Assembly: GCA_026702845.1 (NCBI GenBank)
Contig: JADCLS010000004.1
Coordinates: 306,190-370,189, forward strand
Length of the DNA stretch: 64,000 nt
Direction of reading: 5' to 3'
Source of the DNA: Candidatus Heimdallarchaeota archaeon
GTDB lineage: Archaea; Asgardarchaeota; Heimdallarchaeia; Heimdallarchaeales; Kariarchaeaceae
The notes under the pieces are model-generated. The model did no database searches and had not been told where the DNA came from. It was given only the letters and a program-made list of their open reading frames with translations. Numbering within the stretch: position 1 is the first letter of the stretch; each line of letters begins with the position of its first letter. The position numbers and the translations under genes are program-made. Of the stretch, positions 450-33,227 are shown one piece after another.

Positions 450-467
450 ACTAGTGAGATTGGATTA
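450..467 (+). repeat. 18-bp direct repeat, copy 1
   Basis: Reads ACTAGTGAGATTGGATTA. It matches three other copies at 7951, 8349 and 8500, all in the same orientation. This copy overlaps the last codons and the TAG stop of the minus-strand 967-aa gene. Read on the minus strand it continues into a T-rich stretch, as do the other copies, so a transcript-end or recombination-site role is conceivable. Confidence 0.7.
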
Positions 468-10601: not shown

Positions 10602-10705
10602 AGATTCATTGATTTGTAAATTTAAATAATCTTCTTACACAAATTATTACCAAATATCTAGTTAATTTGCATTAACATTTAATTATTATTATGAGTTACC
10701 CTTAG

Positions 10706-11608: not shown

Positions 11609-11661
11609 TTATTATTGTATGAAACCTCAACATTGAAATTATCTCAATTCAATTTCCTACT

Positions 11662-12375
11662 ATGCCCAAATCTCAGAAGAAGAAGGATCGCAAGAAACAT
11701 CAGCGTAGTACTCATCAGGAGAATTTGAATATTGAGAGTTATAATGGATTAGTTCATCTTCTTGAGGATTTGGAATTGAGCTTTGCTGAGTTGGGATTAA
11801 CGATAGATGATTTTTCTAATCCTGAAGATGAATATCTCCAACATTTGAAATCTCTCTATGAGGAACTACGAGCACCAATTATCAGATTTAATTGGATATT
11901 ACACCCTTTCAAAATGAGAAAATATTGTATTACTTGTGGTAATGAGAACATCATCAGTGCATCCATGAAGAGTCTGGTGCATTATGATGAGAAGACCTCA
12001 ATCATAGAATTTGATCTGGATACTGAAAATTATCTCTATCAGAATATCCGAGAATACAAGCAAAGCTATAGCAAATACCATAAGTTGGTGACGGCTCTTG
12101 AATCCCAAGATGATTTAGCCATGGTGCGCAGAGATCTGAAGAAACAGTGTATTCAATTAATATCTAATCCTCTTGAAAAATGTGTTGAGGATTTGAGAAT
12201 AACTGATGTGAATGTGATGATCTACTTCACCCTTGCATTGTATCATTTTCAAGAGGAATTGATAGAAGAAGGGGTGGATCATATAAAAATGAAGAAAACA
12301 TTCTATCGTATTGAGGATTATGTCACCGAAAAAAGAATGAAACGAGCTGAAACTCTTCTCGAGCACCTAATCTAA
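11662..12375 (+). CDS. Helical protein with basic N-terminus, 237 aa
   Basis: Unrecognised. The first 20 residues are strongly basic (KSQKKKDRKKHQR), followed by a largely helical protein with one CxxC (YCITCGNEN) near residue 92. It could bind nucleic acid or a ribosome-like surface through the basic head; this is inference. It probably forms a transcription unit with the preceding 300-aa zinc-finger-like protein. Confidence 0.5.
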   Translation: MPKSQKKKDRKKHQRSTHQENLNIESYNGLVHLLEDLELSFAELGLTIDDFSNPEDEYLQHLKSLYEELRAPIIRFNWILHPFKMRKYCITCGNENIISASMKSLVHYDEKTSIIEFDLDTENYLYQNIREYKQSYSKYHKLVTALESQDDLAMVRRDLKKQCIQLISNPLEKCVEDLRITDVNVMIYFTLALYHFQEELIEEGVDHIKMKKTFYRIEDYVTEKRMKRAETLLEHLI

Positions 12376-12465
12376 AATCCTCAAGTAGGAAAAGATGATT
12401 CCTATTGTACAATATTTCTGCAACTGCAGATTGAAGCTATATATTACGATGCAAATTATCAATCT

Positions 12466-12831
12466 ATGGCAATTATTGATGAAAATACCTACCTAGGAAC
12501 CAGCTTTGCCACATTATTCATATTCTTAGTTTGTGGTTCAATTATTTCTGCTTTGATCACAATGTACTTGCTGAAAATTAAGAAGGTGCAACCTCAATCA
12601 GTCGAGTTCCAATTATCCTTAAGGCTTATTACATTATTCCTTCCAATATCATGGATAGGCCTAACAATAGGATCTAATTTTGGTGATGAAATTACTTTAG
12701 ATTCATGGATTAACCTCGCAGTGACTTGCTTCATTTCTATAGTCATCATAATATTGCTGATGAATAATATTCTTGAGATAACTAAAATAAAGTATGGTGA
12801 TGATCCTATTAGCCCAGAAACCTGGGAATAG
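12466..12831 (+). CDS. Small three-TM membrane protein
   Basis: 121 aa with hydrophobic segments at about residues 12-38, 48-70 and 80-102 and a short acidic tail. No family recognised. Its 3' end overlaps the convergent nucleotide-kinase gene by 23 bp. Confidence 0.5.
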   Translation: MAIIDENTYLGTSFATLFIFLVCGSIISALITMYLLKIKKVQPQSVEFQLSLRLITLFLPISWIGLTIGSNFGDEITLDSWINLAVTCFISIVIIILLMNNILEITKIKYGDDPISPETWE

Positions 12832-15771: not shown

Positions 15772-15797
15772 TATTCACAACAGTAATCTATGTAAGA

Positions 15798-16361
15798 TCA
15801 TGATCTGATATACGTCTTGAACCCTCCAGCTACATGATTTTTTTTCATTTCCATAATACTTAGCCCAAGTCCATGACCAAAAATCGTCTTATCAGGTGTG
15901 ATTTTTAGTATTACATTTTGATCTGCATTTTCTATTGCATCTTTGATCACCATGCGCAAGATTCGTTTATTCATGAATAGCTCAATGATTTCCTCATTTT
16001 GAATATCTATGATTTCTGCCGTTCCTTGAAATTGAATAGATGAGGCTGGAACAAATCTGAGTATATGATGAGGAAATGGAATAACAAAAGAAATTAGAGG
16101 ATTATTCTTAATATTTTTTGTTTTTTTATATTTTCTACCAGTGACAATGTAGATAGTTGGATTATCTATTGAATCCAATCCATATACTACACTCGTTGAG
16201 TGTGGAGATCCCTTTTCATCAATTGTCCCCAAAATACCATAGGTTTTTGATTCCATCCACTTGTATACTTGAGTAAATGGTAATATTCTTGTCATGGAAT
16301 CCAATAATTCAATACTAATTAAGCTCTTATTGAAGAATTTTGAATTATTGCCAAAATCCAA
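15798..16361 (-). CDS. PNPOx-like flavin-binding protein
   Basis: 187 aa. A split-barrel fold is indicated by GILGTIDEKGSPHSTSVVYG, then the strand TIYIVTGRKYKKTKNIKNN and the strand SIQFQGTAEII. This is the pyridoxamine-5'-phosphate-oxidase-like family that binds FMN or F420. Substrate unknown. The first 25 residues look like an extension; a Met at about residue 22 is an alternative start. Upstream partner of the nucleotidyltransferase. Confidence 0.7.
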   Translation of the reverse strand: MDFGNNSKFFNKSLISIELLDSMTRILPFTQVYKWMESKTYGILGTIDEKGSPHSTSVVYGLDSIDNPTIYIVTGRKYKKTKNIKNNPLISFVIPFPHHILRFVPASSIQFQGTAEIIDIQNEEIIELFMNKRILRMVIKDAIENADQNVILKITPDKTIFGHGLGLSIMEMKKNHVAGGFKTYIRS

Positions 16362-16442
16362 AGCTTATTAGTCACAAATTTTGAGATATTTTCCATTGCT
16401 ACTGGCTATTGCTTATATTATCCATTTACTCTAGGTACTAGA

Positions 16443-17144
16443 ATGTCTGAAGAATTAATAACATCTAAAATGAAACTAATCATTTTGTTACGCTTACTTT
16501 TTGTAGCTCCAGTTCTTGCATTACTGACAATCTTGCCTTCTGGAGAGTGGTTATGGATAGATGGTTGGTTATTTATCCTAGCACTAACACTCATGGCCAT
16601 AATATCTGTATTCTGGATGATAAGAAGAGATCCAGAAATGGTGGTTGAACGAATGAAAGGTAGTTATCAAGCAGAACAAAAATCCCAGGATAAGTTGATT
16701 GTTGGATTAATGACGATTACTTTTCTGGCAGTATATCCACTATCAGGAATTGATAAACGCTATGATATCATGATGCTTTCATTGCCTTATAAGATCCTAG
16801 GCTGGGTATTACTTCTTCTATCTGTGTATGTGTTGTACCGTGTACTGAAAGAAAATACTTACCTTTCTAGATCAATTGTGATTCAGGAGGAACGAGGTCA
16901 GAAGGTGATTGATACAGGTAGTTATGGATGGGTTCGCCATCCGATGTATTTGGGTACTATGCTCATGATGTTTGGAACAACATTGATCCTTGGATCATTA
17001 CTCGGTACTCTAATTAATTTTATCAACTTGATATTAATCTATATGCGAGCTATTTCTGAAGAATCACTGCTGAAAGAGGAATTAGAAGGATATTCTGAAT
17101 ATATGACTAAGGTAACCAAACGATTAATCCCTTATATTTTATAG
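16443..17144 (+). CDS. ICMT/PEMT-type membrane methyltransferase
   Basis: 233 aa, with four or five membrane helices. The C-terminal half carries the isoprenylcysteine-methyltransferase-type SAM-binding signature SYGWVRHPMYLGTMLMMFG and a conserved acidic pair LLKEELEGYSEYM near the end. Members methylate isoprenylcysteine, phospholipids or other lipidic substrates; in archaea the substrate is generally unknown. A lipid-related role is the safest inference. Convergent with tpiA, 2 nt apart. Confidence 0.75.
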   Translation: MSEELITSKMKLIILLRLLFVAPVLALLTILPSGEWLWIDGWLFILALTLMAIISVFWMIRRDPEMVVERMKGSYQAEQKSQDKLIVGLMTITFLAVYPLSGIDKRYDIMMLSLPYKILGWVLLLLSVYVLYRVLKENTYLSRSIVIQEERGQKVIDTGSYGWVRHPMYLGTMLMMFGTTLILGSLLGTLINFINLILIYMRAISEESLLKEELEGYSEYMTKVTKRLIPYIL

Positions 17145-17146
17145 GG

Positions 17147-17926
17147 TCAGACAGATTGCAAGATGGGTAAGAAGGTATCTGCCTTCAATGAGGCACCACC
17201 AATCAATCCTCCATCAATGTTCTTCTGGGTAAGTAACTCTCTTGCATTGGATGCTTTCATCGACCCTCCATATTGTATCCTTATCTTATCTGCTTCATTT
17301 TTTCCGTAATTCTTTTCAAACCATTCTCTCACCACAGTATGGCTTTCATTAGCTTCTTCTATGCTGGCAGCCTTGATCTCAATTCCTGGGTTGAGATATT
17401 TGTTATCTATCGCCCAAACAGGTTCATATGCAATGATTACGTTTGTTAATTGTGTCTTGCTAACCTCCTGTAGTGATCCTGAAAGTTGTTCTTGATTAAC
17501 TGCGGCCATTTGACCATCTGCTCTTTCCTTGGCTGTCTCTCCAATACATAAAACTACTTTCAGATCATTGTCCAGTGCAGTCAGAACTTTTTTGTTAATC
17601 AGAGAATCCTCCTCTCCAAAAATTCTTCTACGTTCTGAATGACCTAGGAGAACGTATTCACAACCTGCCTCTAGTAACCCGTCAACTGATACTTCACCAG
17701 TAAATGCCCCTGAGTTCATGAAGTGCATATTTTGTCCAGCAAGGGCAAGGTTAGAATTCTTTATCACTTGCCCCACTTCATATAATGTATTGGGTGACGG
17801 TGCGATGAAAGCATCGACACCACTTACAGTAGTCATTTTAGATGCCATATCAGAAGCTCTTTCCCTTGCCTGTTTGATAGTTGGTAATTGCATTTTCCAA
17901 TTCCCACCAAAGACGTATGATCTCAT
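17147..17926 (-). CDS. tpiA: Triosephosphate isomerase, bacterial-length
   Basis: 259 aa, interconverting dihydroxyacetone phosphate and glyceraldehyde 3-phosphate. Catalytic residues are visible: K11 (GGNWKM), H96 (LLGHSERRRIFGE) and E168 (AYEPVWAID). The phosphate-binding GGSMKASN and GGLIGGAS are present. Typical archaeal enzymes are about 225 aa; this one has the longer bacterial/eukaryotic form, so horizontal acquisition is likely. Odd: after E168 the usual loop-6 hinge IGTG is replaced by IDNKYLNPG. Activity is still likely, but loop closure may differ. Confidence 0.93.
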   Translation of the reverse strand: MRSYVFGGNWKMQLPTIKQARERASDMASKMTTVSGVDAFIAPSPNTLYEVGQVIKNSNLALAGQNMHFMNSGAFTGEVSVDGLLEAGCEYVLLGHSERRRIFGEEDSLINKKVLTALDNDLKVVLCIGETAKERADGQMAAVNQEQLSGSLQEVSKTQLTNVIIAYEPVWAIDNKYLNPGIEIKAASIEEANESHTVVREWFEKNYGKNEADKIRIQYGGSMKASNARELLTQKNIDGGLIGGASLKADTFLPILQSV

Positions 17927-18268
17927 ACTATACGAGATATTTTACTAGAATATATTTCCAATGTATACCTTAGCCATTTTTGATCAATGTATGGGTTGAT
18001 TATTTTCAATTGATAGATTTTGAATAATTTTTTCCAAACCTGCCAAATAATTCTCTTTTAGAGCTTGTTTCTTTCATTTCTTGCAGAATGTATTCAAAAA
18101 TAGATTTTTGCAATATTCGTCTTTTTTCTACTTAAAACAACTTTAAGACATTCTACATTGCAAAAAATGAAAATGAGTACAAGTTTTTCAGTTTTGATTG
18201 TTGTGAACTTTGACCAACAATATTAATTTACATGAAAATAAATCTACCAATCGGAGATAGTTTCGTCG
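17927..18268. other. Intergenic region upstream of top6B
   Basis: 342 bp between divergent tpiA and top6B with no credible gene. It must hold both promoters. An inverted repeat ATTGTTG (18197-18203) / CAACAAT (18215-18221) lies 48-72 bp before the top6B start and could be an operator or RNA hairpin. A TTAAAACAAC stretch near 18130 is a weak TATA candidate. A GGAG ribosome-binding site (18253-18256) precedes the GTG start. Confidence 0.5.
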
Positions 18269-21200
18269 GTGTCAGACAATTCAAATAATATAGATGAAAA
18301 ACCATTATCAGATGATGTTTCAGATCTCGAATCAGTTTTAAATGTTGAACAAAATATGACAACGGGTGACAAAACACAATCGAAGAAGAAGAAAAAGAGC
18401 AAGAAAGGTAAATCTGAAAGTGAACCAAAACGAGATTCAAAAGCCCGTACTGCCTCTGCAGCAGTTTTCTTCAATGATAATAAGGCTATTGCCGGTTTTG
18501 GGAACTCTATGCGTGCAGTTTTTACATCTGTGAGAGAATTAGTAGAAAATAGCCTTGATGCTTCAGAAAAAAGAGGCAATACCCCAAACATTCATCTTAG
18601 GATGCGTAGATTATCCAAGAAAGAAGTGGATAAATTAATGGGAACCTCAATCGTGAAGACAAAGGAACAAAAAATTGAGTTTATTGAGCTTTCATGCCGA
18701 GATAATGGTGTTGGTGTAGATCGTGAACTCATCCCACAATTATTTGGAACAGTACTAGCCGGAACGAAATATGGTGCACAACAAACTAGAGGCCGATTTG
18801 GTCTCGGTAGTAAGATGGTATTACTCCATGCCATGTCCACTCTCGATCTTCCAATTCAAATCACCACTCGCTCTTTGGGTTCTGACACCACCCACAGAGT
18901 GCAATTATTCATCAATCTCGAGAAAAATGAACCTATCATCCACAAGCAATGGGAATTTATCGAGGGAGATGATGAATATTTTGATGATTATGGAACTGAA
19001 ATAAAAGTATCATTTACTGGATCCTGGACAATGGCAAAGAATTATGTGAAGGAGTACTTTAAGCAACTCGCAATTATCACACCTTATGCTGATATATTTG
19101 CAACAGTGCCTGGAGAAAAGGATGATGATGAAGAACTGAGCTATCTCAGGGTAGTAGATGAATTACCTGACCCACCTCAAGTAGTCAAAGTACATCCTTG
19201 GGGTACAGACATCAGTACGTTCAGAAGAGAAATGATGAATGCTGATGAGACTAATCTAATTGATTTTCTTGTGAATAATTTCATGGGTGTAGATCATCAG
19301 GCCGCAGAGTCATTTTTCGAAGTAGTTGGAGTCGATCCGAATAAACCTCCAGTTGAACTTACTAGTCAGGAAATCAGAAGAATTGTTCATGATGGATTTT
19401 CTGTAGCACTGAAAGAAGCCAAGACCGTGAAACGTAAACGTGATAGAGTTTTCATGTTCAATGAACCCAGTGGAGATTCTCTTTCTCCCCTAGGAGCTGA
19501 TAGACTTCGTAAAGGTTTAGAGAAGGAATTAGCTCCTGATTTTGTTGAATCAGTGACTCGAGCTCCTCATGCATACGAAGGGCATCCCTTCATTATAGAA
19601 GCTGCTATAGGATATGGAGGAGGGGTGAATGAAGCTGCAAAGAGTAAGAGCGGCACTGTGGTCGATAATCGAGTGATTTATCGGTTTGCTAACCGTATCC
19701 CGTTAATCTTCGGAGCTGGCAATGATCTCATAACCAAAGTTGCTAATTCAATGAATTGGTCTAAGTACGGACTAACCAGAGGTACAGAACCACTAGCTAT
19801 TGCTGTATCTTTAGTCTCAACTAAGATTCCCTTTCCAGAGACTTCAAAGGAGTATATAGATACTGTAGACGAGATACAAGAAGAGGTGAAATTGGTCCTT
19901 GAACAGCTAGGACGAAAATTAAGAACCTATCTGGGACGAAGGAGAAGACGAACAAGAGAGAGACAACGTAAATCACTATTTGATCGACATGCATCTGAGA
20001 CAGTTGAGAATTTACTTGAGATTCTCGAGGCAGAGGGTCTCTATAACCGATTAACGGGAGTAAGTTCAACCAGAATTATTTCAGCTTTATCTTCTGGATC
20101 TCCAAGAATAAATCCAACGATACTCCCATTCGGTGAGAAGTTATCACAGGCTCCTATTTGGTCAGAAATAGATGTTATTAATGCCTTACAGACAAAAAAT
20201 ATCTATGAGTTATCCACCTTCCTAAGGACATCGAATAATGAACTGGCAAAAATATTAAAGTGGAAGAGCAGAGATGTAGATCTGGTTAAACGGAGAACAA
20301 TTCAAGAATTAGAACTTAAAGGGGATATTATTGAAATTGATCCTGATAAACTAGTGGATCCTGAAGTTGAAAAAAGATTTAACAAGAAATCTGAAGATAA
20401 AATCGTTGAATTACCTAGATTGAATAAATCACTATCAAAACGTTGGATTAGGAATGTTTATGACTATATTGTATCCCCATCTGAAAAATTGAAACTTGTA
20501 TCTGGTATGTTTACCAAATTCATGGAAATGGAAAAATATAACATAATCTCTGCAATGAATTTTGAAGAGGACGATGATTTATTAGAGGGATTAACCAATT
20601 TTCTTGAAATGGAAACAGGTCAGGTAAGTCAAGAATCGTTGGGTCTGGATGATTTTTTTGATGCAGACTCACTTATTGCTGGTATGTTTGAGGATTCTGA
20701 TGATCAAGAACCAGTTATTGATGCCATGCAAAGCTCTACCAACGAGTTAAATATCCTTGATGTTATCCCCAATTTTGATAATATCCTTGGTTTTAAGGAG
20801 ATTAAAAATCGAAAGATAACAAATATCTATGAATTTTTCTTTGATATTGCTCATCCCACAGTTCCTATTGACGAAAAGGTTCTTGCCCTAGATCTAGTTT
20901 CCACATTCAAAGAAAAATTAATGGAATTAATTGCGATAAATCCTGAAATAGGTATGATCGTTGTTGATGAGAAGGAAGGCCAGAAATGGTTAGATGGCAA
21001 TATCAGTAATGCATTCAAACGTAAGAAAATCCATACTTTAATGGATATATTGGCAGTTGAGGATAAGGAATTAGCTGAAATTGGTTGGTTTATTAGATTA
21101 TTATACAATAGCTTGCTATCCAAATTACTTCCAACTGAGGAAAATCTCGATTCATTACAATTGGAGAATAATACTTCAAAAATAAAGATTCTTAAAAAGG

Positions 21201-24200
21201 CTGGTTTCAAGAATATTGAAAGTTTACTAGTCACATCTAGCCTTGATTTGGTAGAAAACCCTGATCTCAAGGAATATTTTGATTTACTTGTTGAGGAATC
21301 CAAGGATAAGATTATTGAGATGCTCACACTTCAGAATAGTCTGGGTGAATTATCTCTCATAAAAATCATTCCTCCTGATCTTGAAAATGAGATGTATGAG
21401 AAAAACATCTATTCATCGACTGATTTATTAAGAACTCCAATTCCCTTATTGACTGAAAAATATCATGAAAAGATTCGATATGCGAAAAAACAAATTGGAG
21501 CTAGTTTTAATTGTTTGAATAAAACTCAGACTTCTTTAATGGAGAAATTGGGAATAACAGTTTTGGATGAGTTAATTTTCAATCCAAATTATTATGTTAA
21601 TCAAGAATTATCTGCTACAGATATGAAAAATCTAGAGCGTTTGTTGGATCAGTTGATGAAACCTGTATACTTCATTGATACCCACTTGATTGCATCAGTA
21701 GATCTTTTGTTTGATGCTGGAATAACTACTGTCGGTAAATTCTTGGTATGGCCAAATAGTATTATCGCAGAGATATTAAATTATCAAGAGGAGTGGATCT
21801 CTCTATTGAAAGAGAATTTCTCTTTATCTGAAATAACAGCAAATGAGAAAAAGGCTTCAGTTCCTCTTGAGACATTAAAACATTTAATCTCAGAAGAACT
21901 CATAGATACAGCCATAGAAAATGGTTTCACAAGTGTTCATGAGATATCACAAATCAAATGGGGAGATATATTCCCTGTTACCAACCAATGGGCGAAAATA
22001 TCCCTGTATAATAAAATTCTTACTGAACAGAATTCCATTGATTATCTCGAGAAAATCAATATCAAAGGTGTTAGTTCACTAACCAAGAAATTGAAGAAAA
22101 AGGATTTAACCAATTTAATGTTGTTCCTTGATTCTGATAGAATGTCTCTGGATAAAATTGCTTCTTCAAAGAAAGATAGAGATATACTAGAAAAAGTATT
22201 CGCTTCTTTCTCCTCTGGTGAAGGATTAGATCAAGATATTTATGCCGCAGTGACGATTTTCAAACTTACGAAAATATTACGTTCTCCCATAGTAAATGTC
22301 AGCGGATTTACAATATATGATATTGAGAAATTAAATGAGTTGGATATTAGAACACTTCATCAGGTGATATTTTGTCAAAATAAGGATATTCAAGAAATTC
22401 TTCACCTTAGTGATTTGAATATTCCAGAGAAGCTAGCTGAATCAGAATTAGTTGTTGTTGGAACTCCACTTTATTATGCAGAGAAGGGAATAAATAAATC
22501 CGTTGTCAAATTTACTCATGAGGGTAAGGATGATGAATATTTCAGCACAAATGATATTAATGGATTATTAAGTGTAGGATATTCAACTATAGAGCAATTG
22601 GCATACATGGCTGATCATCGTACTTTCTCTGTCCCTGGTATCAGCTGGGAAGTTATTTCTCATTTCAAGAAATTACTTCAATCTCCGTTGGTGCTTATTA
22701 CCTGGGTTAAAGAGATGCCTGATATCGATGAGCAAGGAAATGTTATTCCGAAATTGGATAAAGATGGTAAACCAATTCAATTAAAAGATTCAAAGAATAA
22801 TGAACTATTCAATAAAGATGGTTCGCCAATTTATGATCCACAGATGAAGAAGGTCTATTTCAATTTTGATTCAACAGAATTGGAGATTTTATATGATCAC
22901 GGTGTCAAGCGGATAATAGATTTTCTTACTGCCACTCCAGAAAAAATAAAATCTGTCCTTGATTGGCCTGAAGAACTGATTGAAGAGAGATTGATCAATG
23001 TTGAGTTGAAAGAGGCTGGAATCGAGCTTGCAGATCTGGAAATTTTCCGGGCAGACCATATATCTCATCTTAAGAAGATCGGATTGGTTACTATTGAAGA
23101 TTTGTATTTCACAGCAAACAAAGAAACCTGGGATTCAGATCAAATCCCATGGGCATCTATTGAAACTATCAAGAATATTTTACATTTAGATATAATCAAC
23201 GCTGTTGAGGAAATAGGTCCTCAAATGGTTGAAGTGCTGAAAACAAATGGAATTGAAACAATACTTGACCTGTATCTAACCGCAGAAACCATACTTTCAC
23301 AGAAAACTGGACTTCCTGAGGAGAGATTTGAAAATCTAAAGTTCAATATCGATCTAGGTGCATTAATAGAGGCATTTGATAAATCTGTTTTATTCACACC
23401 TGGTCTAAACTATTTCCAAACCATGGTATTGAACCGTACAGGATATAGCAAGGTCCTAGATATAATTCTCGGAGATAATGATGAAATCTCTCTAATTTTA
23501 GAGGTACAGAGAGAAGAAATTGATTTTATTTGTGATAATATTAATCGTACAACAATCAAGGAAACAGAAGATGATCGGGGTGTACAACTCAAGGAAATAA
23601 AAGTATTCAATCGTTCTGATGCAAAATCTGTAGCCACTTCAGGTATTTTTGAGAGAAATGAATTTGATACGCTTCAGGAAGTGATTTATCAAATTAGAAC
23701 AGATTATTTCCAGGGTGAGAAATATTTACTAACTCAAGTAGAGAATCTCAAGAAAGTATGTGCCATTCCGCTAGAAAAGATTGGAGATCTTAACAGACAA
23801 GACCTAACTATCCTTATTAACAATGGTCTTACCAGCATCTCTGATGTTTTGTTGATCCCATTTGAAGACATTTCAAATGATCATAAGCTATACACTGCTG
23901 TTCAGAGCATTACGAAATCCATTATTGATCTACGACCTTTCATGGCAATTGCTCAATTGCGTGCTGATGTCGCACTTCGAGAAGGATCATTTGATGGAAC
24001 GCTCCTTGAGGCTTGGCTAGCAAATGATTCTGGGTTACATCACCGGGTCATAAATAGTCTAAGATCCTTACTTTCAATTCCAATAATTTATACACATTAT
24101 GTTGATGAGGAAGATAATCTTGAAGAGATAAGTGATAAAACAGTTGGAGATATAATTTTATCATATGCTCCAGATGTATACTCACAGATAGCGAAATTTC

Positions 24201-27200
24201 AATCCAAAATTAATCAACCAAAATCTCTAATCAAATTGCTTAAAGAGGGTTCAACTCCCATTACTCTGTTAGATCTAGATCCGCTGGAACTAAGAGCGTT
24301 ACAAAGGGAATCCATCACTACTATTGAACGATTATTGACCAAAGATCCCAAGGATATTATCCAAATAGCTGGAAATACTCAGAAATTCTGGAAAAGCATA
24401 ATGGAGATTTTCAAACCCGATATATTTAATGCTAGACTAGAAGATATAGGTGTTCCTTTTACGATTTTTGGATTACATGCCGATCAGAGACAAGCTATTG
24501 AGGAATTGGATCTCTCCTCTTTCGAACAACTCCTCTTTCTTGATGAATTACCTGAATCTCTTGAGATTCTTAAGAAATTCATGTTCTCTTCAACGAATTA
24601 CCTCATAGGGACTCCTGGTGAAAAAGAATTATCAGAGAATGAAGGTGCAAAGAATATCCTTGAATCCATTATGGCAATGCGTAAGAAAAGTGCCAATCCT
24701 CTAGTTGTGAAAGAAATGATACAAATAGCCTGGAGTGCATATTACAAGAATGCCATTCCGATTGAGGATATTCAACTGGAAGGTGAATCGATCTATACAC
24801 TACAAGATTTGGCCGCATATGTCAGTAGAGGAGGAAAGTGTCCAAAAACATATCAGAAATTGATAGATGACCTTAATTCTTCAGTTATGTTACTACCACT
24901 ATCGCCAAGTAATCTTAAAACCTTGATACATGAATTACGTTGTTCTACCATAATGGATGCAATCACCTCACCCATGGCGTTTGGCGAGATCGGAAAATAT
25001 CGCACTATGGTTGCAGAAGGTGAAGAAATCACGGTTCTTCATGAAATCAAGATCAATCTAAATCCTATAAAAGTACTGGATAAAAGTACATGGAATAGAC
25101 TATCTGATTCGGATCTGTGCCTACAGGATATCATAGCAAGTCCCCGAACTTATGAAGAATTCAAGGGTGTTAAACTCAAATATCTACAATCCGCTAGAAA
25201 TGCACTTCATACCCCTCTCATCCGATATAACTTCAACAACCGAAGAGTATTCTTTGATAGTAAGGAGCTTGATGAAACAGTCTACCTTGAAGATTTGATC
25301 TATCTATTACCAACGCTTCTCAATGACTCACCAGAACTTGTGGCGAAGATCATCACAACGTTACAGTCTGATGAATTAGAAGTTGTACGGTCTATTCCCA
25401 TTTCAGAGGAGTTGACTACTGCAGCTTCAATGACATTCAATATTGAGATTAATGATTTTCAATCCCTATACAGTGCAGGTTTGGTTAGTTCTAAAATAGT
25501 AAAATCAATTCATACTAACAGTGCTATCTTGATTAGGGATTACCTCCTCAATTCATTGAAGAGTATAGCATGTTTGGAAGGTGTTACTGAACAGGAACTC
25601 TGGGATTTATGGAAACTTAAAATCTATACTATCGCAGATCTTCTATTATCTCCTGTTGATATTAGTAATTTTGATCAATTCACTAATAAACGGGAGCGTT
25701 TCTTAAAGAAAGCAGCTCTAGATGCTCTTGAAAAGGATCTAATAGATCCACTTCTTTCCATAAAAAGATTACTTGAGGTGGTAACTACAAAATCACACTA
25801 CCGTCATGATCTTTCATATGCAAATCTTATTCATAAACGCCCACATCCACTTATCAAAGATCAATTGAAGATTGTTCCAAAACGAGTGAGACAATTATTA
25901 AAGAGTTCAATCCTCTACTCTGACTTCTGCAATGAGTTGTCACTTGAGGATATGACTGCAGTCTTGAAATTGGGTATTCGTACATTTGCTGATTTACTGT
26001 TCATTCCAGAAAAGCTAGATGGAGTACCTGAAGATATTCGGTCTCTTGAAGCTCGTTTAGTAGTAATTGCCACACAATTCACTACTAACAGGTCCAAAAT
26101 TACTCTATCTCAGATCAATTTGCCTGAATCATATTTATTAATGAATGGAGGTGAGAATTCAGGAATTATTGATCTACTTGCATTATTATACCGAAAGAAG
26201 TTAGATACAGAACTTGGTAAGTTAAGTATCCGCTTACAATATTCCAATTTTGCAACTGACCATAGAAAGGTGTTACGAAATAATGGCTACCAAACAATAA
26301 TGGATCTTTTTATTGCATCTCCGTTTGTGCTTTCAGAACTACTAGAAATAGATGAGGAAGAGGTTTTAGAGGTCCTCAAGAGCCATGATATAACAGAATT
26401 AATCAATAGAATGTCTTCTATTCCATTACAAATTTCTACATTAGAAAAGATATCTAAGAACTCACGAGCATATCTTGAGGGGTTGAATCTACAAACTGTA
26501 TTGGATATCAAACTTAATGTCTTGGATAATATCAATCGAACAGATTCTAATTACATCGGTCAACTAATCGCTATCTTAAACTCCTCTGTTAGTCTTTTAA
26601 ATATCCTACCTGAAGTGGATTCTTCTGATTTAGAGGATGACCATCAACTTGTTAGAGATGTCATTCGCTTTGCCCATAGTTACGATACACCATTGAATAA
26701 TATTTTTGGGAATTTCACTGATGACAATTTGCTGGAGTTAGTGGAAAAACAACGTAGGTTAGGTTTACTTGATGGAATTATCAATAAAGAAGAGAAAATA
26801 TTGCATGAGCATTCGATTTTCACATTCAATCAACTGGCCAAAACATCAATTGATGATTTAATCTCTTGGGGCTTGGAAGAAGAAAAATACGAATCTATCC
26901 TGGATTCACTTGCCCAATCCTTCAAGGATATTATCGGAATAACAGAACCTGCAATTGAAGAAGGAATCTCTCATGAAATAAACACAGTTGCTGAATTTTT
27001 ATCTCATAGAGAGCTCTTAAAATATGAGTATGAACATCCAATCAAAATTAGAATAGAGCGAACCTTGTCAACTTTCTTTACTGATGATTCAGTTAACATC
27101 CTTAAGGAAAAGAAGATAAATTACCTTAATAAGTTCCTGAAATCAAAAACTGCCTCTAAGCTACTGAAGGAAGAAGATCCATTGTTTATTAAAATTGTAG

Positions 27201-29026
27201 GAACTCTTAATCTCCCGATTGAATTCCTACCTAAAATCAAACGCTCTTGGGTATCAGTATTCCTTGAAAATAAGATTTATCGTATCCATCAATACCTGAA
27301 CTCAGATCTTCAAGAATTGGCCACTATGTGTGATACATCTTATACTACACAGGAGAATTACTTAACAAAATTAGATCTCACAGACGTTTTATTTTCGGAA
27401 CCCATAAAGATTCCATACTTACCTGAAGATGAGACATTATTACGTATTTCTGGTGCGATAATTCAAGATGGATTACTCCAAGATGGTATCTTACTTGACC
27501 TCATTCATTCTGACAAAAAGAAGCGAATTACCGCATATCAAAAAGCATTCACTTCTCCTATTTGGGTATGCAATTATTATTGGAATTTAAATGAGGATGA
27601 TCGTGCAGTTTTGGCAAACACTGGAGATACTCTCGCTCAACTTGTAGAAGCTGGAAAAGCCAAAATATCTATTGATTTTGACGAATTATTATCAGGAATC
27701 TTTAATTCTCAATTTAATGAAGAATTTATTGAAGGAATTGATTTATCGCCGTGGTTACATGAATCTATTGCTAAGGAATTGAAGGAAAAAGAATTAATTG
27801 ATTACTATTCATGGATGTTTGCATCCTATAAAGAAGGTGATAAACCTCCAGGCACTTCAATACTCCGTGCCTCAATAAGCATTTTAACCACGTTAACAGT
27901 AAAACAAGTTCTCAAAGCATTTGAAAATGGAGTAACACATATTTCAGATTTGGTTACTTTGCCAGAAAACAAGTATTACTCATCCATTGGAATTGCTAAA
28001 TCCAAGATTGATGAGATAAAGGGTGAGCTAAAATCTATTAGAAGTTTATCACAATCACTCCCAGTTATAGCTTATTTCAACTCTGATCTACATAATAGTC
28101 TGAGAGAAGGAGGAGTTACTTCATGGAGTGAGTTGATAGGAAATATCCGGTCTGATGAACTGGCCTTGATTACAGGATTTACAGATAAGACAAGACAGAA
28201 TTTCCTTGAAAAAATTCGAGAACCAATTTGGTCTCTCATTGACCTGCGAAATCTTGGGCTGAAACGACTTCAAACTATTGTTAAGAAGGGTTGTATAACC
28301 ATCCAAGACCTATTAATTATTGGTGATAAAATCCGAGATGTCATTTCAGAACAAGAAATGGAACTATTCTATAAAAATCTTGATGTAAGTTCAATCAATA
28401 AAGGATTAAAGCACCCAGACATTAGATTATCCAAATCTAAGAAATTTAAAGTATCAGATGAGAAGGCTCTTGCAGATATAGGTATTCAGGGTCCAATTCA
28501 TCTACTGTTAGGTGCATTCACACTACCAAATTCATCACCATTTGAAGATGGTGTAAACGATTGGATTGCCATGGGTGAAATTGATGTTGAAGCTTTGGAT
28601 TTCCCTGAGGCAGTTATTAAAGCATTCAAGGATAATGGATTGATGACCGTTGGTGAGGTAATCTTGAGAAGTAATGACTTTCTAAGAGATTTAGGTGCAA
28701 GCAATAAGCAATTAAAGGATTTCAGAGAGAAATTTACTCTAACAAAACCAGCAAAGAAACCTTCTAAAAAGGTCTCCAAGCAAAAAGATACTAAGGTTCC
28801 CGCAAAGAAAACGACGAGTAAAGCTGATAAATCTAAAAGTAGCACCTCTTCATCTAAGGAAATCACTTCAAAGAAATCAACTTCTAAGAAGTCTGCTACC
28901 AAGAAGAAGGCTACAGCAAAGAAAACAACTGCCAAAGCACCTGCAGCTAAGAAGAAAACAACTGCAAAAAAACCTGAGGCAAAGAAGAAAACAACAGGTG
29001 GGAAGAAAAAGAGCACCAAAAAATAG
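18269..29026 (+). CDS. top6B: Giant DNA topoisomerase VI subunit B
   Basis: 3585 aa against about 530-670 for the family. Residues 1-60 are acidic then lysine-rich. The GHKL ATPase follows: N-box RELVENSLDA (E90, N94), G1 box RDNGVGV (D145), G2 box GRFGLGSK (175-182). An H2TH-like region (about 310-380) and a transducer (about 385-570, candidate switch lysine K490) complete the core. From about 590 to 3490 the protein consists largely of degenerate repeats with the pattern L-x3-G-I-x-T-I-x-D-L-L, e.g. near residues 1090, 1145, 1540, 1600, 1650, 1850, 2007, 2565, 3216, 3336 and 3451; these resemble helix-hairpin-helix (RNAP alpha-CTD-like) units. Residues about 3491-3585 are a Lys/Ala/Ser/Thr tail like histone H1. 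The frame is unbroken over 10.7 kb. top6A follows 12 nt later. GTG start, GGAG upstream. Confidence 0.93.
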   Translation: MSDNSNNIDEKPLSDDVSDLESVLNVEQNMTTGDKTQSKKKKKSKKGKSESEPKRDSKARTASAAVFFNDNKAIAGFGNSMRAVFTSVRELVENSLDASEKRGNTPNIHLRMRRLSKKEVDKLMGTSIVKTKEQKIEFIELSCRDNGVGVDRELIPQLFGTVLAGTKYGAQQTRGRFGLGSKMVLLHAMSTLDLPIQITTRSLGSDTTHRVQLFINLEKNEPIIHKQWEFIEGDDEYFDDYGTEIKVSFTGSWTMAKNYVKEYFKQLAIITPYADIFATVPGEKDDDEELSYLRVVDELPDPPQVVKVHPWGTDISTFRREMMNADETNLIDFLVNNFMGVDHQAAESFFEVVGVDPNKPPVELTSQEIRRIVHDGFSVALKEAKTVKRKRDRVFMFNEPSGDSLSPLGADRLRKGLEKELAPDFVESVTRAPHAYEGHPFIIEAAIGYGGGVNEAAKSKSGTVVDNRVIYRFANRIPLIFGAGNDLITKVANSMNWSKYGLTRGTEPLAIAVSLVSTKIPFPETSKEYIDTVDEIQEEVKLVLEQLGRKLRTYLGRRRRRTRERQRKSLFDRHASETVENLLEILEAEGLYNRLTGVSSTRIISALSSGSPRINPTILPFGEKLSQAPIWSEIDVINALQTKNIYELSTFLRTSNNELAKILKWKSRDVDLVKRRTIQELELKGDIIEIDPDKLVDPEVEKRFNKKSEDKIVELPRLNKSLSKRWIRNVYDYIVSPSEKLKLVSGMFTKFMEMEKYNIISAMNFEEDDDLLEGLTNFLEMETGQVSQESLGLDDFFDADSLIAGMFEDSDDQEPVIDAMQSSTNELNILDVIPNFDNILGFKEIKNRKITNIYEFFFDIAHPTVPIDEKVLALDLVSTFKEKLMELIAINPEIGMIVVDEKEGQKWLDGNISNAFKRKKIHTLMDILAVEDKELAEIGWFIRLLYNSLLSKLLPTEENLDSLQLENNTSKIKILKKAGFKNIESLLVTSSLDLVENPDLKEYFDLLVEESKDKIIEMLTLQNSLGELSLIKIIPPDLENEMYEKNIYSSTDLLRTPIPLLTEKYHEKIRYAKKQIGASFNCLNKTQTSLMEKLGITVLDELIFNPNYYVNQELSATDMKNLERLLDQLMKPVYFIDTHLIASVDLLFDAGITTVGKFLVWPNSIIAEILNYQEEWISLLKENFSLSEITANEKKASVPLETLKHLISEELIDTAIENGFTSVHEISQIKWGDIFPVTNQWAKISLYNKILTEQNSIDYLEKINIKGVSSLTKKLKKKDLTNLMLFLDSDRMSLDKIASSKKDRDILEKVFASFSSGEGLDQDIYAAVTIFKLTKILRSPIVNVSGFTIYDIEKLNELDIRTLHQVIFCQNKDIQEILHLSDLNIPEKLAESELVVVGTPLYYAEKGINKSVVKFTHEGKDDEYFSTNDINGLLSVGYSTIEQLAYMADHRTFSVPGISWEVISHFKKLLQSPLVLITWVKEMPDIDEQGNVIPKLDKDGKPIQLKDSKNNELFNKDGSPIYDPQMKKVYFNFDSTELEILYDHGVKRIIDFLTATPEKIKSVLDWPEELIEERLINVELKEAGIELADLEIFRADHISHLKKIGLVTIEDLYFTANKETWDSDQIPWASIETIKNILHLDIINAVEEIGPQMVEVLKTNGIETILDLYLTAETILSQKTGLPEERFENLKFNIDLGALIEAFDKSVLFTPGLNYFQTMVLNRTGYSKVLDIILGDNDEISLILEVQREEIDFICDNINRTTIKETEDDRGVQLKEIKVFNRSDAKSVATSGIFERNEFDTLQEVIYQIRTDYFQGEKYLLTQVENLKKVCAIPLEKIGDLNRQDLTILINNGLTSISDVLLIPFEDISNDHKLYTAVQSITKSIIDLRPFMAIAQLRADVALREGSFDGTLLEAWLANDSGLHHRVINSLRSLLSIPIIYTHYVDEEDNLEEISDKTVGDIILSYAPDVYSQIAKFQSKINQPKSLIKLLKEGSTPITLLDLDPLELRALQRESITTIERLLTKDPKDIIQIAGNTQKFWKSIMEIFKPDIFNARLEDIGVPFTIFGLHADQRQAIEELDLSSFEQLLFLDELPESLEILKKFMFSSTNYLIGTPGEKELSENEGAKNILESIMAMRKKSANPLVVKEMIQIAWSAYYKNAIPIEDIQLEGESIYTLQDLAAYVSRGGKCPKTYQKLIDDLNSSVMLLPLSPSNLKTLIHELRCSTIMDAITSPMAFGEIGKYRTMVAEGEEITVLHEIKINLNPIKVLDKSTWNRLSDSDLCLQDIIASPRTYEEFKGVKLKYLQSARNALHTPLIRYNFNNRRVFFDSKELDETVYLEDLIYLLPTLLNDSPELVAKIITTLQSDELEVVRSIPISEELTTAASMTFNIEINDFQSLYSAGLVSSKIVKSIHTNSAILIRDYLLNSLKSIACLEGVTEQELWDLWKLKIYTIADLLLSPVDISNFDQFTNKRERFLKKAALDALEKDLIDPLLSIKRLLEVVTTKSHYRHDLSYANLIHKRPHPLIKDQLKIVPKRVRQLLKSSILYSDFCNELSLEDMTAVLKLGIRTFADLLFIPEKLDGVPEDIRSLEARLVVIATQFTTNRSKITLSQINLPESYLLMNGGENSGIIDLLALLYRKKLDTELGKLSIRLQYSNFATDHRKVLRNNGYQTIMDLFIASPFVLSELLEIDEEEVLEVLKSHDITELINRMSSIPLQISTLEKISKNSRAYLEGLNLQTVLDIKLNVLDNINRTDSNYIGQLIAILNSSVSLLNILPEVDSSDLEDDHQLVRDVIRFAHSYDTPLNNIFGNFTDDNLLELVEKQRRLGLLDGIINKEEKILHEHSIFTFNQLAKTSIDDLISWGLEEEKYESILDSLAQSFKDIIGITEPAIEEGISHEINTVAEFLSHRELLKYEYEHPIKIRIERTLSTFFTDDSVNILKEKKINYLNKFLKSKTASKLLKEEDPLFIKIVGTLNLPIEFLPKIKRSWVSVFLENKIYRIHQYLNSDLQELATMCDTSYTTQENYLTKLDLTDVLFSEPIKIPYLPEDETLLRISGAIIQDGLLQDGILLDLIHSDKKKRITAYQKAFTSPIWVCNYYWNLNEDDRAVLANTGDTLAQLVEAGKAKISIDFDELLSGIFNSQFNEEFIEGIDLSPWLHESIAKELKEKELIDYYSWMFASYKEGDKPPGTSILRASISILTTLTVKQVLKAFENGVTHISDLVTLPENKYYSSIGIAKSKIDEIKGELKSIRSLSQSLPVIAYFNSDLHNSLREGGVTSWSELIGNIRSDELALITGFTDKTRQNFLEKIREPIWSLIDLRNLGLKRLQTIVKKGCITIQDLLIIGDKIRDVISEQEMELFYKNLDVSSINKGLKHPDIRLSKSKKFKVSDEKALADIGIQGPIHLLLGAFTLPNSSPFEDGVNDWIAMGEIDVEALDFPEAVIKAFKDNGLMTVGEVILRSNDFLRDLGASNKQLKDFREKFTLTKPAKKPSKKVSKQKDTKVPAKKTTSKADKSKSSTSSSKEITSKKSTSKKSATKKKATAKKTTAKAPAAKKKTTAKKPEAKKKTTGGKKKSTKK

Positions 29027-29038: not shown

Positions 29039-30454
29039 ATGATTAAGGAAATGAAAATTTATAACTCAACAGTAGTACCAGAAAAAGGCAAACAGAATTG
29101 GAAAATTCTGGAGATAGAACTTGATTCTCCTATTTCAGAAATAAAGAAACATATCAAAGATGAATTTGATTTGAGGAATTTGAAGTTTATATTGTTTTTG
29201 AAGAATGAGAAGCTGAAGAAATGGTTCAAGATGGATGAAAATAAGAAAATATCAGATTATCCTTATGAGGGTGATATACGTCTTGATATTAAAAATTCTG
29301 TCTCACTTGATAAAATTGAGGAATTAAAGAAATTAGTAAAGAATAGAATCGATGAATTTCCCTATGGTGTGTTACAAGTGGAGACCACAACCGCAGAAAC
29401 TACCAAGAAAAAATTAGTTCAAGCTGCTAAACATTTTATTAATGAAGCCATCACTGATCCTAAAAATGCCTCATTTTCCATTCCCAGCAGGTCAGGTGAT
29501 AATATTGGATTTGATGAAGAGAGTGAGATGGTCTTGCTTGGAATGCAACGTACAGAAAGACAATTCAGGAGCCTATCCTCTGTAAAATCGGTAAAGCAAC
29601 TGACCTATCTCATGAAACATATGTATGAACAACTGGATAGAAATATTCATGTGACCAAACGTGATCTGTTTTATAATGATGTCAATGCTTTCGAAACACA
29701 AAATACATCAGATAATTTAATAGAGGATGTAGGTGCAATGTTGCAGGTTACTCGTCCTTCTTTAAATGTCACAGCCTCTGCAAAAGGAATAGTTGTGGGT
29801 CATATTCAATACACAGAAAGAGGGGATCTTATCGATGGCACAAGAACCGGATCCGGAAAATCCATAGCTCCAAATATTGATGATATAGAGAATATTCAAA
29901 GCGATGCAGAGTTTGTATTGGTGATTGAGAAAGATGCAGTATTCAACAGATTGGCAGAAGATCAATTTTATGATTACGTACCTTCAATTCTAGTAACTGC
30001 AAAAGGTCAACCCGATATGGCTACAAGGTTATTCCTCAAGAAAATAGATGAAGAATTGAATCTACCAATACTTGCGTTGATGGATGCTGATATTTATGGA
30101 TTTGAAATCCTTCGTGTGTATTCTGTTGGAAGTAAGGCCTTAAGTTTTGAAGCTGCAAATCTTGCAGTACCCAACATCAAATGGCTAGGGTTGCTACCTT
30201 CTGATCTAAAGGATGAATCTGATTTTAAAATACCCAAATCCACACATATTAAAATGAGTAATTCTGATGAGAAGAGAACTAAATTACTCCTCGAAGAGGA
30301 ATTTGTGAAACGTAAACCTGAATGGACCCGAGAAATCCAAGTATTACTCGATCTCAAAGTAAAAGCAGAAATTCAGGCACTGAATGCAATTGATCCTCAA
30401 TATATCACGAACCATTATCTTCCAATGAAACTAGAATCAGGAGATTTTATCTAA
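29039..30454 (+). CDS. top6A: DNA topoisomerase VI subunit A with N-terminal extension
   Basis: 471 aa; the family is usually 360-390. This is the DNA-cleaving subunit related to Spo11. The winged-helix catalytic tyrosine is Y212 in VTKRDLFYNDVNAF. The Toprim domain has E297 (VIEKDA) and DAD at 349-351 (LMDADIYGF). TAKGQPDMATR and PNIKWLGLLPSD are typical family blocks. Residues 1-95 are extra: alternating strands and a helix (ILEIELDSPISEIKKHIKDE) that could form a beta-grasp, ubiquitin-like fold; this is inferred from pattern only. It is co-translated with the giant B subunit and would form an A2B2 enzyme with it. Confidence 0.93.
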   Translation: MIKEMKIYNSTVVPEKGKQNWKILEIELDSPISEIKKHIKDEFDLRNLKFILFLKNEKLKKWFKMDENKKISDYPYEGDIRLDIKNSVSLDKIEELKKLVKNRIDEFPYGVLQVETTTAETTKKKLVQAAKHFINEAITDPKNASFSIPSRSGDNIGFDEESEMVLLGMQRTERQFRSLSSVKSVKQLTYLMKHMYEQLDRNIHVTKRDLFYNDVNAFETQNTSDNLIEDVGAMLQVTRPSLNVTASAKGIVVGHIQYTERGDLIDGTRTGSGKSIAPNIDDIENIQSDAEFVLVIEKDAVFNRLAEDQFYDYVPSILVTAKGQPDMATRLFLKKIDEELNLPILALMDADIYGFEILRVYSVGSKALSFEAANLAVPNIKWLGLLPSDLKDESDFKIPKSTHIKMSNSDEKRTKLLLEEEFVKRKPEWTREIQVLLDLKVKAEIQALNAIDPQYITNHYLPMKLESGDFI

Positions 30455-31397: not shown

Positions 31398-33227
31398 TTG
31401 AGCGCGCAAAATTCATCAATAAGCTATACTGATAGAGCAATTGAAGCAGAAGAAACCATAAAAGCAGGTATCTCCAGTGGAGATCCAGTAAAATTCATTC
31501 AAGGATTCTATGATTATGAGAAGGTTATTTTATATTATGAAGGTGTGGGAAAGTCCAATGAGAGTAGAAAACTCCTCACTCGATTGGAGAAAATACTGAA
31601 TATCGTTGTGGAGAAGGGAAATCCAGATGCACAATACTATTCAAAATTAGGCCCATTCTTCATTTTATATGCTAGACACTTCAATGCAAGAATTCTGGAA
31701 ATGCTTAATCTTGACCTGAAAACAGCAGTGGCTTCTAGAGCTCTTGCACTTGATTTCGCCATTGGAATTGAGTGGGTGGAGCAAGTACTAAACATTATGG
31801 TGGATCTTCTGATTGAGGGTTTAGTCGATCATTGTTTGAGATATCTAAAATTCACACAGGAAAAGAAGGAAGATTTAATTGAGGAAATCAAGATCCAGAT
31901 TGAAGAAACCAGTGAGAAGAGAAAATTCTGGCAGAAAAAAGATGATCCAGCCACGATTGCAAAGGTGATTTATGAATCCTTCCTAAGACTACTGGGACTT
32001 ATGATTGAGAAATTCAACAAGGGACAGAGCTTCCTTGATGAGGGACTTGAGATATTACGGCAGATTAAGAATTATGCCAATGCCGATCTTGAATATTTGG
32101 ATCTGCGGTTTATTGCATTGGAATCCAATATCTTTGCTAGTTCTCGTGAGGAAATCAATGTTGCCACGATCTCACACATAAAATCTAGGATTATCCCCTT
32201 CACAATTATGGATGATCCTAATATTGAAGAGGTAGAGAGATTACTCGAGCGTTTTGTCAGACAAAAGGGTATAGATATTGATGTATCAATTGCACAAATC
32301 CCGATTTTGGGAGCAAATCCATCCGGAACTCCTCATTTATCCATTATTGGACAGACAGGAACTGGTAAAACAACCCTAACCAAGCAAATCTTAAAGGAGA
32401 ATATCAGAGCTCAAGATTGTGCAGTTGTTGTATTTGATCACCACTTTGAGTATGCAGATCTTGCAGATCATGTCGTTCAGATAGGTGGTGAGAGACAGCC
32501 CGAGGCCAGTGCATATTTTGGTGTTGAGGAAATTGGTGATACTTTCAAACAAGCCCAATCATTTATCCAGGATCAGCAGAAGGTATTTGCATCAGAAGGT
32601 TCAAACCCTGAGGAATTAGCCAAGAAAATTAGAAATTATGAAGCAGAAACCAGACCTACTATCAATAGATTCGTTATTGATACCATTGAAGGGGTGATCT
32701 CCAAGGATGAAAAAACAGCATTACCTATAAAAGCTGGTGAGATAACAGTTTTCTGGGTGATCATGGATGAGGCTGATATTGCCACCACAATCATCTCCAC
32801 ATTTATCAAATATATCCTACAACAGGCTATTCATGAAGAATTGCCCACAAAAACCATTATGGTTACTGAAGAAGCTCAACGTTTGAGAGACGATCAATGG
32901 GTAAAGAACCTGGCATCTGAAGGTAGAAAATTCGGCTTATTCCTGATCTCTATTTCCCAATCCCCAGAATTTAATCCATGGGTAGTATCAAATAGCGAAC
33001 TAACAATCTTCAAACTCAGACAGATCACTGATAAAGGACCCATTGCTGAATTATTCAATGAAGAGGCAAAGAAAATGGTTATCAATCTTGATGTGGGTGA
33101 ATATCTGAATTATCATAGAGATAAAAGAAACTGGGTACTTTCATACAATCCAGAAGCATTATCTCCCTTCCATGCTAAGCAGACCTTAGATCAGAAAGTA
33201 AAACAACTTCGAGAAATTGTAAGGTAG
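31398..33227 (+). CDS. HerA/FtsK-type P-loop ATPase
   Basis: 609 aa from a TTG start with GGTGA 8 nt upstream. Residues 1-280 are helical, a domain I do not recognise. The HerA/DUF87-type ATPase follows: Walker A SIIGQTGTGKTTLTKQIL (about 313-330), an acidic Walker B strand VFWVIMDEAD (about 453-462), and a second acidic strand TIMVTEEAQRLRDD with an arginine-rich segment typical of HerA-like translocases. Such ATPases form hexameric rings that move DNA. No NurA-type nuclease is adjacent. Its position after top6B-top6A suggests a role in chromosome handling. Confidence 0.78.
   Translation: MSAQNSSISYTDRAIEAEETIKAGISSGDPVKFIQGFYDYEKVILYYEGVGKSNESRKLLTRLEKILNIVVEKGNPDAQYYSKLGPFFILYARHFNARILEMLNLDLKTAVASRALALDFAIGIEWVEQVLNIMVDLLIEGLVDHCLRYLKFTQEKKEDLIEEIKIQIEETSEKRKFWQKKDDPATIAKVIYESFLRLLGLMIEKFNKGQSFLDEGLEILRQIKNYANADLEYLDLRFIALESNIFASSREEINVATISHIKSRIIPFTIMDDPNIEEVERLLERFVRQKGIDIDVSIAQIPILGANPSGTPHLSIIGQTGTGKTTLTKQILKENIRAQDCAVVVFDHHFEYADLADHVVQIGGERQPEASAYFGVEEIGDTFKQAQSFIQDQQKVFASEGSNPEELAKKIRNYEAETRPTINRFVIDTIEGVISKDEKTALPIKAGEITVFWVIMDEADIATTIISTFIKYILQQAIHEELPTKTIMVTEEAQRLRDDQWVKNLASEGRKFGLFLISISQSPEFNPWVVSNSELTIFKLRQITDKGPIAELFNEEAKKMVINLDVGEYLNYHRDKRNWVLSYNPEALSPFHAKQTLDQKVKQLREIVR

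Follow-up and report, generated by a model that had tools for sequence, protein, structure and literature searches.

In the archaeal contig studied here, of which a stretch of 64,000 nucleotides (hereafter the window) was analysed, the B subunit of topoisomerase VI (Top6B) is encoded as one protein of 3585 residues, in which a normal catalytic core is followed by some 2900 residues of degenerate helical modules and a lysine-rich tail. Judged from the sequences of this protein and its relatives, the catalytic parts are in place, the array is conserved and collinear, all array-bearing forms make up a single phylogenetic group, and the extension is under purifying selection in relatives.

The top6B frame, its core and its homologues

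The first-pass annotation had described the frame as unbroken, and this holds: a six-frame check of its span (Table 1) found no internal stop, the terminal one lying at 29024-29026, and 123-423 stops in each of the five other frames. GC content by codon position retains its coding pattern through the extension and shifts in the lysine tail, and the GTG start is supported by the homologue P0003, which starts at the equivalent position of the alignment with a similar N-terminus.

The presence of a normal topoisomerase VI B core, as had been proposed, could be confirmed, in that residues 58-582, with the GHKL motifs, the H2TH part and the transducer, match 2zbk_B of S. shibatae with an E-value of 1.1e-89; the Pfam domain HATPase_c scores 22.3 bits, under its cut-off of 26.4. 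K519, the lysine of VSTKIPF in the transducer, is aligned as well. Invariant in 12 giant sequences are E90/N94, D145xG147, GRFG with G180, and K519, of which we take E90/N94 to be the N-box and the remainder likewise to be the named motifs of GHKL proteins and Top6B. The adjacent Top6A carries the catalytic tyrosine (RDLFY), the TOPRIM motif VIEKDAVF and DAD, all aligned with 2zbk_A. With its GHKL motifs, H2TH, transducer lysine and a neighbouring partner with catalytic residues, the window enzyme has all catalytic motifs of a topoisomerase VI in place, and would be expected to carry out ATP-dependent strand passage. GHKL, H2TH, transducer and an adjacent top6A are common to the window and to S. 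shibatae (2zbk) and M. mazei (2q2e); the Top6B chains of these two, however, measure 530 and 621 aa, and the window protein has about 2900 residues more. The solved Top6B chains in a PDB sequence search span 469-621 aa, and the extension reaches far past these.

Table 1. Features of the topoisomerase VI operon in the window (residue numbers refer to the encoded protein)
Feature	Coordinates	Strand	Remarks and basis
Giant top6B	18269..29026	+	3585 aa, GTG start; single open frame
GHKL ATPase domain, residues 86-211	18524..18901	+	N-box, DNGVGV, GRFGLG; aligned to 2zbk_B
Transducer, residues 400-567, K519	19466..19969	+	PF09239 E 1.5e-52; 2zbk_B alignment
Junction modules, residues 590-760	20036..20548	+	after long transducer helix; structure model, charge, conservation
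Linker, residues 761-840	20549..20788	+	acidic, poorly conserved, mostly low model confidence
Degenerate (HhH)2 / RAD51-NTD-like solenoid, residues 841-3480	20789..28708	+	repeat profile, Pfam, models
Lysine-rich tail, residues 3481-3585	28709..29023	+	net charge
top6A, 471 aa	29039..30454	+	12 bases after top6B stop
Top6A N-terminal domain, ~residues 1-95, probable ubiquitin-like	29039..29323	+	Pfam, profile, alignment

A whole-protein search, in which the best 1977 candidates by shared words were scored, returned 19 proteins at E <= 0.001, the window's own included. Among the candidates so scored, ten other proteins of 3468-3685 aa are 34-49% identical across 96-98% of the window Top6B, and one further homologue measures 4198 aa; source organisms, where given, are Heimdallarchaeota, Kariarchaeaceae or Heimdallarchaeaceae. 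Past residue 2300 the mean identity in 100-residue blocks is 19-30%, and the alignment is collinear with few gaps before the tail. At the level of genome contigs 49 loci were found, all with Asgard names except L043 (Crenarchaeota) and L004, L022 and L033 (archaeon). Closed stop-to-stop frames of 3473-4305 aa are present at 15 of these 49 loci, and many others leave contig ends. Relatives of 4174-4305 aa exist, and one of them stems from a complete genome, namely that of Ca. Heimdallarchaeum endolithica PR6 (L006), in which the 4305-aa frame is the sole Top6B transducer match.

That the frame is an assembly artefact, or a joining of separate genes, is suggested at first sight by a break near codon 600 at L022 and by the seemingly split genes of G052 and G053. 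L022, apparently the same locus as G039:C4, is however the only giant-type locus broken there, and its break is a frame change after which conserved sequence continues in an overlapping frame; the breaks in G052 and G053 coincide with 100-N scaffold gaps, so that a true split of these genes was rejected. Since, moreover, closed frames occur in independent assemblies and in a complete genome, ten homologues are collinear, and the array forms constitute one group in the core tree (see below), we give such an artefact practically no credence. The refuting pattern that had been named beforehand, relatives in which the frame ends at about codon 600 and is continued by independent genes, is not borne out by the 49 loci.

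Anatomy of the extension and of Top6A

Outside the core, the mildly basic residues 590-760 form the best-conserved stretch, with 36 of 171 columns at least 90% conserved. The extension beyond is repeat-rich, as had been claimed, in the sense of degenerate protein modules and not of DNA repeats: Tandem Repeats Finder reported two arrays within the top6B ORF, both inside the lysine tail. A 36-column repeat profile recovers 17 copies of at least 5 bits in the extension, as compared to 0 in 20 shuffles and 0 in the reversed sequence, a count that is not independent since the profile was trained on the giant Top6B family. In Pfam, the window Top6B matches HHH_5 (33.9 bits, cut-off 27) and RAD51D_N (29.3 bits, cut-off 27.3), and across 12 giant sequences these domains are found in 10/12 and 12/12 (best 1.7e-23), respectively. 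RAD51 and RadA carry a single copy of the N-terminal domain, whereas the window Top6B has a tandem array and no recombinase domain that Pfam would detect.

AlphaFold2 models were obtained for residues 440-1300 (pLDDT 81.9) and 1330-2330 (pLDDT 86.3). Both consist of helical repeats, with hairpin turns often paired about 22 residues apart, and the four-helix module fold of the (HhH)2 / RAD51-NTD family is found in the array. By structure comparison the module resembles RAD51/RadA N-terminal domains and the RNA polymerase alpha-CTD, the VIA rows of that comparison being dominated by one module stretch. We estimate that the extension would hold about 40 modules, a number extrapolated from the hairpin-pair spacing in models that reach residue 2330. 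Using Foldseek, the central model (1330-2330) had no match at E 0.001, its top row being a weak one to topoisomerase V (8df9; E 0.017, probability 0.14); the junction model yielded 16 rows at E <= 0.001, all of them topoisomerase VI B chains and none for the array.

The canonical GhG hairpin pattern occurs 0 times in the window extension. The net charge of the array (residues 760-3480) is -132, or -3.7 to -4.9 per 100 residues; with a median of -2.5 and a lower quartile of -4.4 for 29 other window ORFs, this acidity is ordinary for the window. The 113 conserved columns of residues 1331-2330 comprise 53 hydrophobic, 16 acidic and 11 basic ones. The tail is basic, as had been noted, with a net charge per 100 residues of +32 in the window and +23 to +45 in 12 sequences of A1. 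The earlier reading is supported in part, in that the extended B subunit is real, but the suggestion of a huge DNA-binding scaffold is weakened as regards a plain DNA-binding array, given the 0 GhG hairpins and an array that is not basic; DNA binding may lie with the tail or with residues 590-760, or else with surfaces of a non-canonical kind. In the C-terminal 250 aa of Top6B a motif of the form [KR]QxTLx[DE]-hydrophobic (e.g. KQTTLLDM), which we take to resemble archaeal PCNA-binding (PIP) boxes, is found in all 12 complete Heimdallarchaeum-type tails (L005-L009, L012, L014, L018, L021, L024, L027 and L032) and in 0.4% of shuffled tails, where the pattern was written after inspection of these tails and the 12 proteins are closely related. 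None of the 14 window-type tails carries it, a set in which two sequences duplicate genes already present.

Top6A differs along with the array: counted from the first start codon, complete top6A genes encode 463-474 aa beside large arrays versus 400-410 aa in the ~1120-aa class of Top6B. The N-terminus of the window Top6A matches Pfam ubiquitin at E 0.012 (15.8 bits, cut-off 25.4), the match is as weak in L003 and L030, and no ubiquitin match was found in Pfam at 0.05 for the N-termini of L006, L016, L100 and L102. The aligned N-termini of Borrarchaeum do pass the Pfam cut-offs, with 35.2 versus 23.8 bits for Rad60-SLD and 32.3 versus 25.4 bits for ubiquitin. A 13-member profile of the N-terminal domain finds ubiquitin chains in the PDB, where polyubiquitin entries, in which several copies add up, have the lowest E-values, those with a single domain begin at 2.8e-4, and wild-type ubiquitin lies at ~0.02. 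When Top6A residues 1-100 were used as query, the window's own protein was the sole match in a set of 96 candidates, and homologues of the domain were instead drawn from the loci. The added domain is thus probably ubiquitin-like by sequence, and clearly so in Borrarchaeum, and the view that all extra N-termini represent one domain rests on the alignment, of which L100 and L102 are not part. In Borrarchaeum weybense (L035) two topoisomerase VI operons lie near each other, at 9971-12825 (564-aa B and 387-aa A) and at 15782-24236 (~2290-aa B, whose frame runs over a 100-N gap shortly before it ends, and a longer A). Elsewhere in the window, a 609-aa HerA/DUF87-type ATPase (E 6.4e-12) is encoded at 31398-33227, shortly downstream of top6A, and a 967-aa ORF with no Pfam match at 0.001 (451-3354) lies two ORFs from a Cdc6/Orc1-type gene (4295-5464).

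Distribution, phylogeny and genomic background

A Top6B transducer match is present in 215 of the 227 genomes of the phylum. Frames above 1500 aa, which had been looked to as a check on the giant form, do recur in Asgard genomes: at least 39 genomes hold a frame of 1500 aa or more and at least 14 a frame of 1000-1500 aa, both being lower bounds because of contig breaks. The 1353-aa frame of G083, which is among the latter, was rejected as an array form, as it has 0 repeats and an insert within the core; at this locus (L101, 2579-6640) about 600 residues, intein-like, separate the two matched core halves. A profile of residues 1330-2330 matches 60 of the 227 genomes at E <= 0.001, i.e. 34 strongly (E <= 1e-187), 13 with a class of ~2300 aa (some frames of which are cut by contig ends or gaps), 3 of the Borrarchaeum type and ten weakly, some of the last in short frames that are at most candidates for standalone array proteins (G167, G175, G077 and G078; E ~7e-5 to 4e-6).

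In a tree of 80 Top6B cores (536 columns; ten of 89 matching frames left out), every array-bearing row falls within one 57-row group (support 100/100), which the 547-aa Top6B of Sifarchaeum adjoins (58 rows, 100/94). Inside it, the ~1120-aa group (9 rows) parts from a 48-row group (99/95) of ~2300-aa and 3500-4300-aa forms, and the 3500-4300-aa forms make up a 42-row group (100/100) together with the 2190-aa type of L016/P0018/P0019. We infer a direction of array growth solely from a root that was placed at the midpoint. After residue 750 the ~1120-aa forms carry a charge of +5 to +9 per 100 residues and, in complete proteins, 2-3 canonical hairpins, whereas the large forms carry -4.8 to +0.6 and 0 or 1 hairpins.

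Evolutionary rates were compared for 44 pairs, window-type sequences being left out and core dS being saturated in some ~1120-aa pairs. For the 27 pairs with an extension dS of 0.05-2, dN/dS of the extension is 0.060-0.153 in 19 Heimdallarchaeum-type pairs, 0.115-0.147 in seven ~1120-aa pairs and 0.326 in one Borrarchaeum pair, which at the sequence level shows that the extension is under purifying selection in relatives. A neutral, decaying expansion of repeats without function would find some support in the degeneracy of the repeats and in the fall of mean identity toward the C-terminus (the 19-30% blocks), but frames of more than 10 kb that stay open at 34-49% identity, dN/dS values well under 1 and the collinear alignment with few gaps ahead of the tail make it very improbable.

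With respect to the genomic background, gyrase and histone genes were counted in the 227 phylum genomes, which are mostly MAGs and among which the source genome of the window is not included. The strong-array genomes have a gyrA match (PF00521) in 33 of 34 cases and the ~2300-aa class in 13 of 13, and there is none in seven ~1120-aa genomes, the three Borrarchaeum-type genomes and G004. For histones (PF00808, a search that may miss divergent ones), 5 strong-array genomes out of 34 have a match, one each, as compared to 176 of the 193 other Asgard genomes, which include 13/13 of the ~2300-aa class. This gyrase and histone pattern counts as one evolutionary event, since it follows one clade. Gyrase as sole driver of the extension was rejected, in view of the ~1120-aa and Borrarchaeum-type forms without gyrA match (MAGs may be incomplete). 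A role of the acidic array as a histone-tail receptor was likewise dropped, as 29 of the 34 strong-array genomes have no PF00808 match and the acidity of the array does not exceed that of many proteins in the window; binding of the H4 tail is described for the RAD51 N-terminal lobe in passages of PMC10990931. The main text of an archaeal histone survey from 2026 (PMC13260811) contains no word starting with Heimdall or Kariarch. Among 15 genomes examined, Alba has no match in the window-like G003, G042 and G009 nor in G044, and is present in the seven other large-array genomes.

Some gene arrangements were observed in passing. In the ~2300-aa class gyrA is the immediate upstream neighbour of top6B, in the same orientation, in L102, L100 and L098 (G046, G054 and G053). 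In G001, G022, G025, G026, G030, G036, G043 and others gyrA appears as 2-3 profile segments (breaks at about positions 41 and/or 93) inside one frame of ~940-1726 aa, which is intein-like. In four Heimdallarchaeum-type genomes (G005:C2, G019:C89, G024:C52 and G030:C12) the coordinates place an Alba gene just past the 3' terminus of top6A, in opposite orientation to it.

Possible functions of the arm

The reading that we favour, at somewhat less than even confidence, is that of a topoisomerase VI with a giant arm of about 40 modules, a basic tail and a modified Top6A, whose arms would tether a decatenase that works beside gyrase. Two arms would extend from the B dimer, starting next to the DNA gate, and these would keep the enzyme at DNA and/or on partner proteins, where the hold on DNA could be provided by the tail and the 590-760 segment, possibly with a track of the topoisomerase V kind as a guide. 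So tethered, the enzyme would act as a processive decatenase and leave supercoiling to gyrase; the extra Top6A domain, which is found with large arrays, may dock on the arm or on a partner. The smaller array probably bound DNA through canonical hairpins, and the enlarged arrays were probably re-purposed toward scaffolding as the hairpin glycines vanished. A tether for decatenation is favoured by analogy to two precedents. In topoisomerase V of Methanopyrus kandleri, according to passages of PMC9489208, 12 (HhH)2 domains wrap the DNA and appear to serve as a processivity factor, such that a tandem (HhH)2 array in a topoisomerase is shared with the window; the catalytic domain, however, is of the unrelated type IC, there are 12 modules versus ~40, and the window array lacks canonical hairpins. 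In place of a type IC catalytic domain the window protein has the Top6B core of residues 58-582, and no topoisomerase V chain was among its PDB sequence matches. Passages of PMC9348778 report that gyrase-bearing archaea tend toward C-terminal Top6B extensions (Ig-like or 'globular'), which are read there as a specialisation away from gyrase. These are, like the window array, lineage-specific C-terminal additions alongside gyrase, but the extension described for group II Euryarchaeota is ~100 residues long, and the same passages mention no array of the window's size.

The arm could also be mainly a scaffold for protein interactions that assembles proteins of replication or segregation at topoisomerase VI and leaves the contact with DNA to the tail alone. 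We consider this possible, if less probable than the tether: it accords with an array that has neither canonical hairpins nor a net positive charge, with the hydrophobic leaning of the conserved columns (53/113), with the PIP-box-like motif of the Heimdallarchaeum-type tails and with the added, probably ubiquitin-like domain of Top6A beside large arrays, but its partner remains hypothetical, the PIP-like pattern is a post hoc one from 12 close relatives that is lacking in all 14 window-type tails, and RAD51 N-terminal domains bind DNA too (passages of PMC10990931). It is unlikely, on the other hand, that the arm raises processivity directly as a DNA track, wrapping or encircling DNA via a locally positive inner surface in the manner of topoisomerase V. 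The same module type in a topoisomerase context, the top Foldseek row and the basic, canonical-hairpin version in the ~1120-aa sister group would fit such a track, and in topoisomerase V itself the inner cavity bears no more than a slight positive charge, and of the repeats just 3-6 and 9 touch the backbone (passages of PMC9489208); the structural score is weak, however, the window has no canonical hairpins, and in residues 1331-2330 conserved acidic columns are not fewer than basic ones.

A more far-reaching view, which draws on the Heimdall/Kari branch keeping gyrase and being mostly without detectable histones, is that topoisomerase VI would there have turned into a machine of chromosome architecture, of which the ~3000-residue arms, with the ubiquitin-like Top6A dock, would bridge and organise DNA at crossings and partly fill the role of chromatin, somewhat in the way of topoisomerase II in eukaryotic chromosome scaffolds. 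We regard this as quite unlikely.

As for earlier descriptions, a literature search of open-licence papers (titles and abstract openings) found none of a giant Top6B or of a ubiquitin-like domain on Top6A. Passages of PMC8813620 deal with aloposon giants and with unrelated giant genes, and the word 'topoisomerase' is absent from its main text; its Extended Data Fig. 7b presents Asgard proteins of more than 3000 aa with conserved-domain labels and may already show the giant Top6B of Heimdallarchaeum.

A house-keeping topoisomerase subunit of about 6-8 times the solved sizes, conserved in archaea near the eukaryotes, would represent a new architecture in a well-studied family and, after topoisomerase V, a second case of a topoisomerase type with (HhH)2 domains in tandem. 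The related proteins form a graded series, from ~550 aa (no array) through 1120, 2300 and 3500 to 4200 aa, which offers natural test proteins for the function of the arm. Since the array overlaps with the presence of gyrase and the scarcity of histones, the division of topological work in gyrase-bearing archaea thereby becomes testable.
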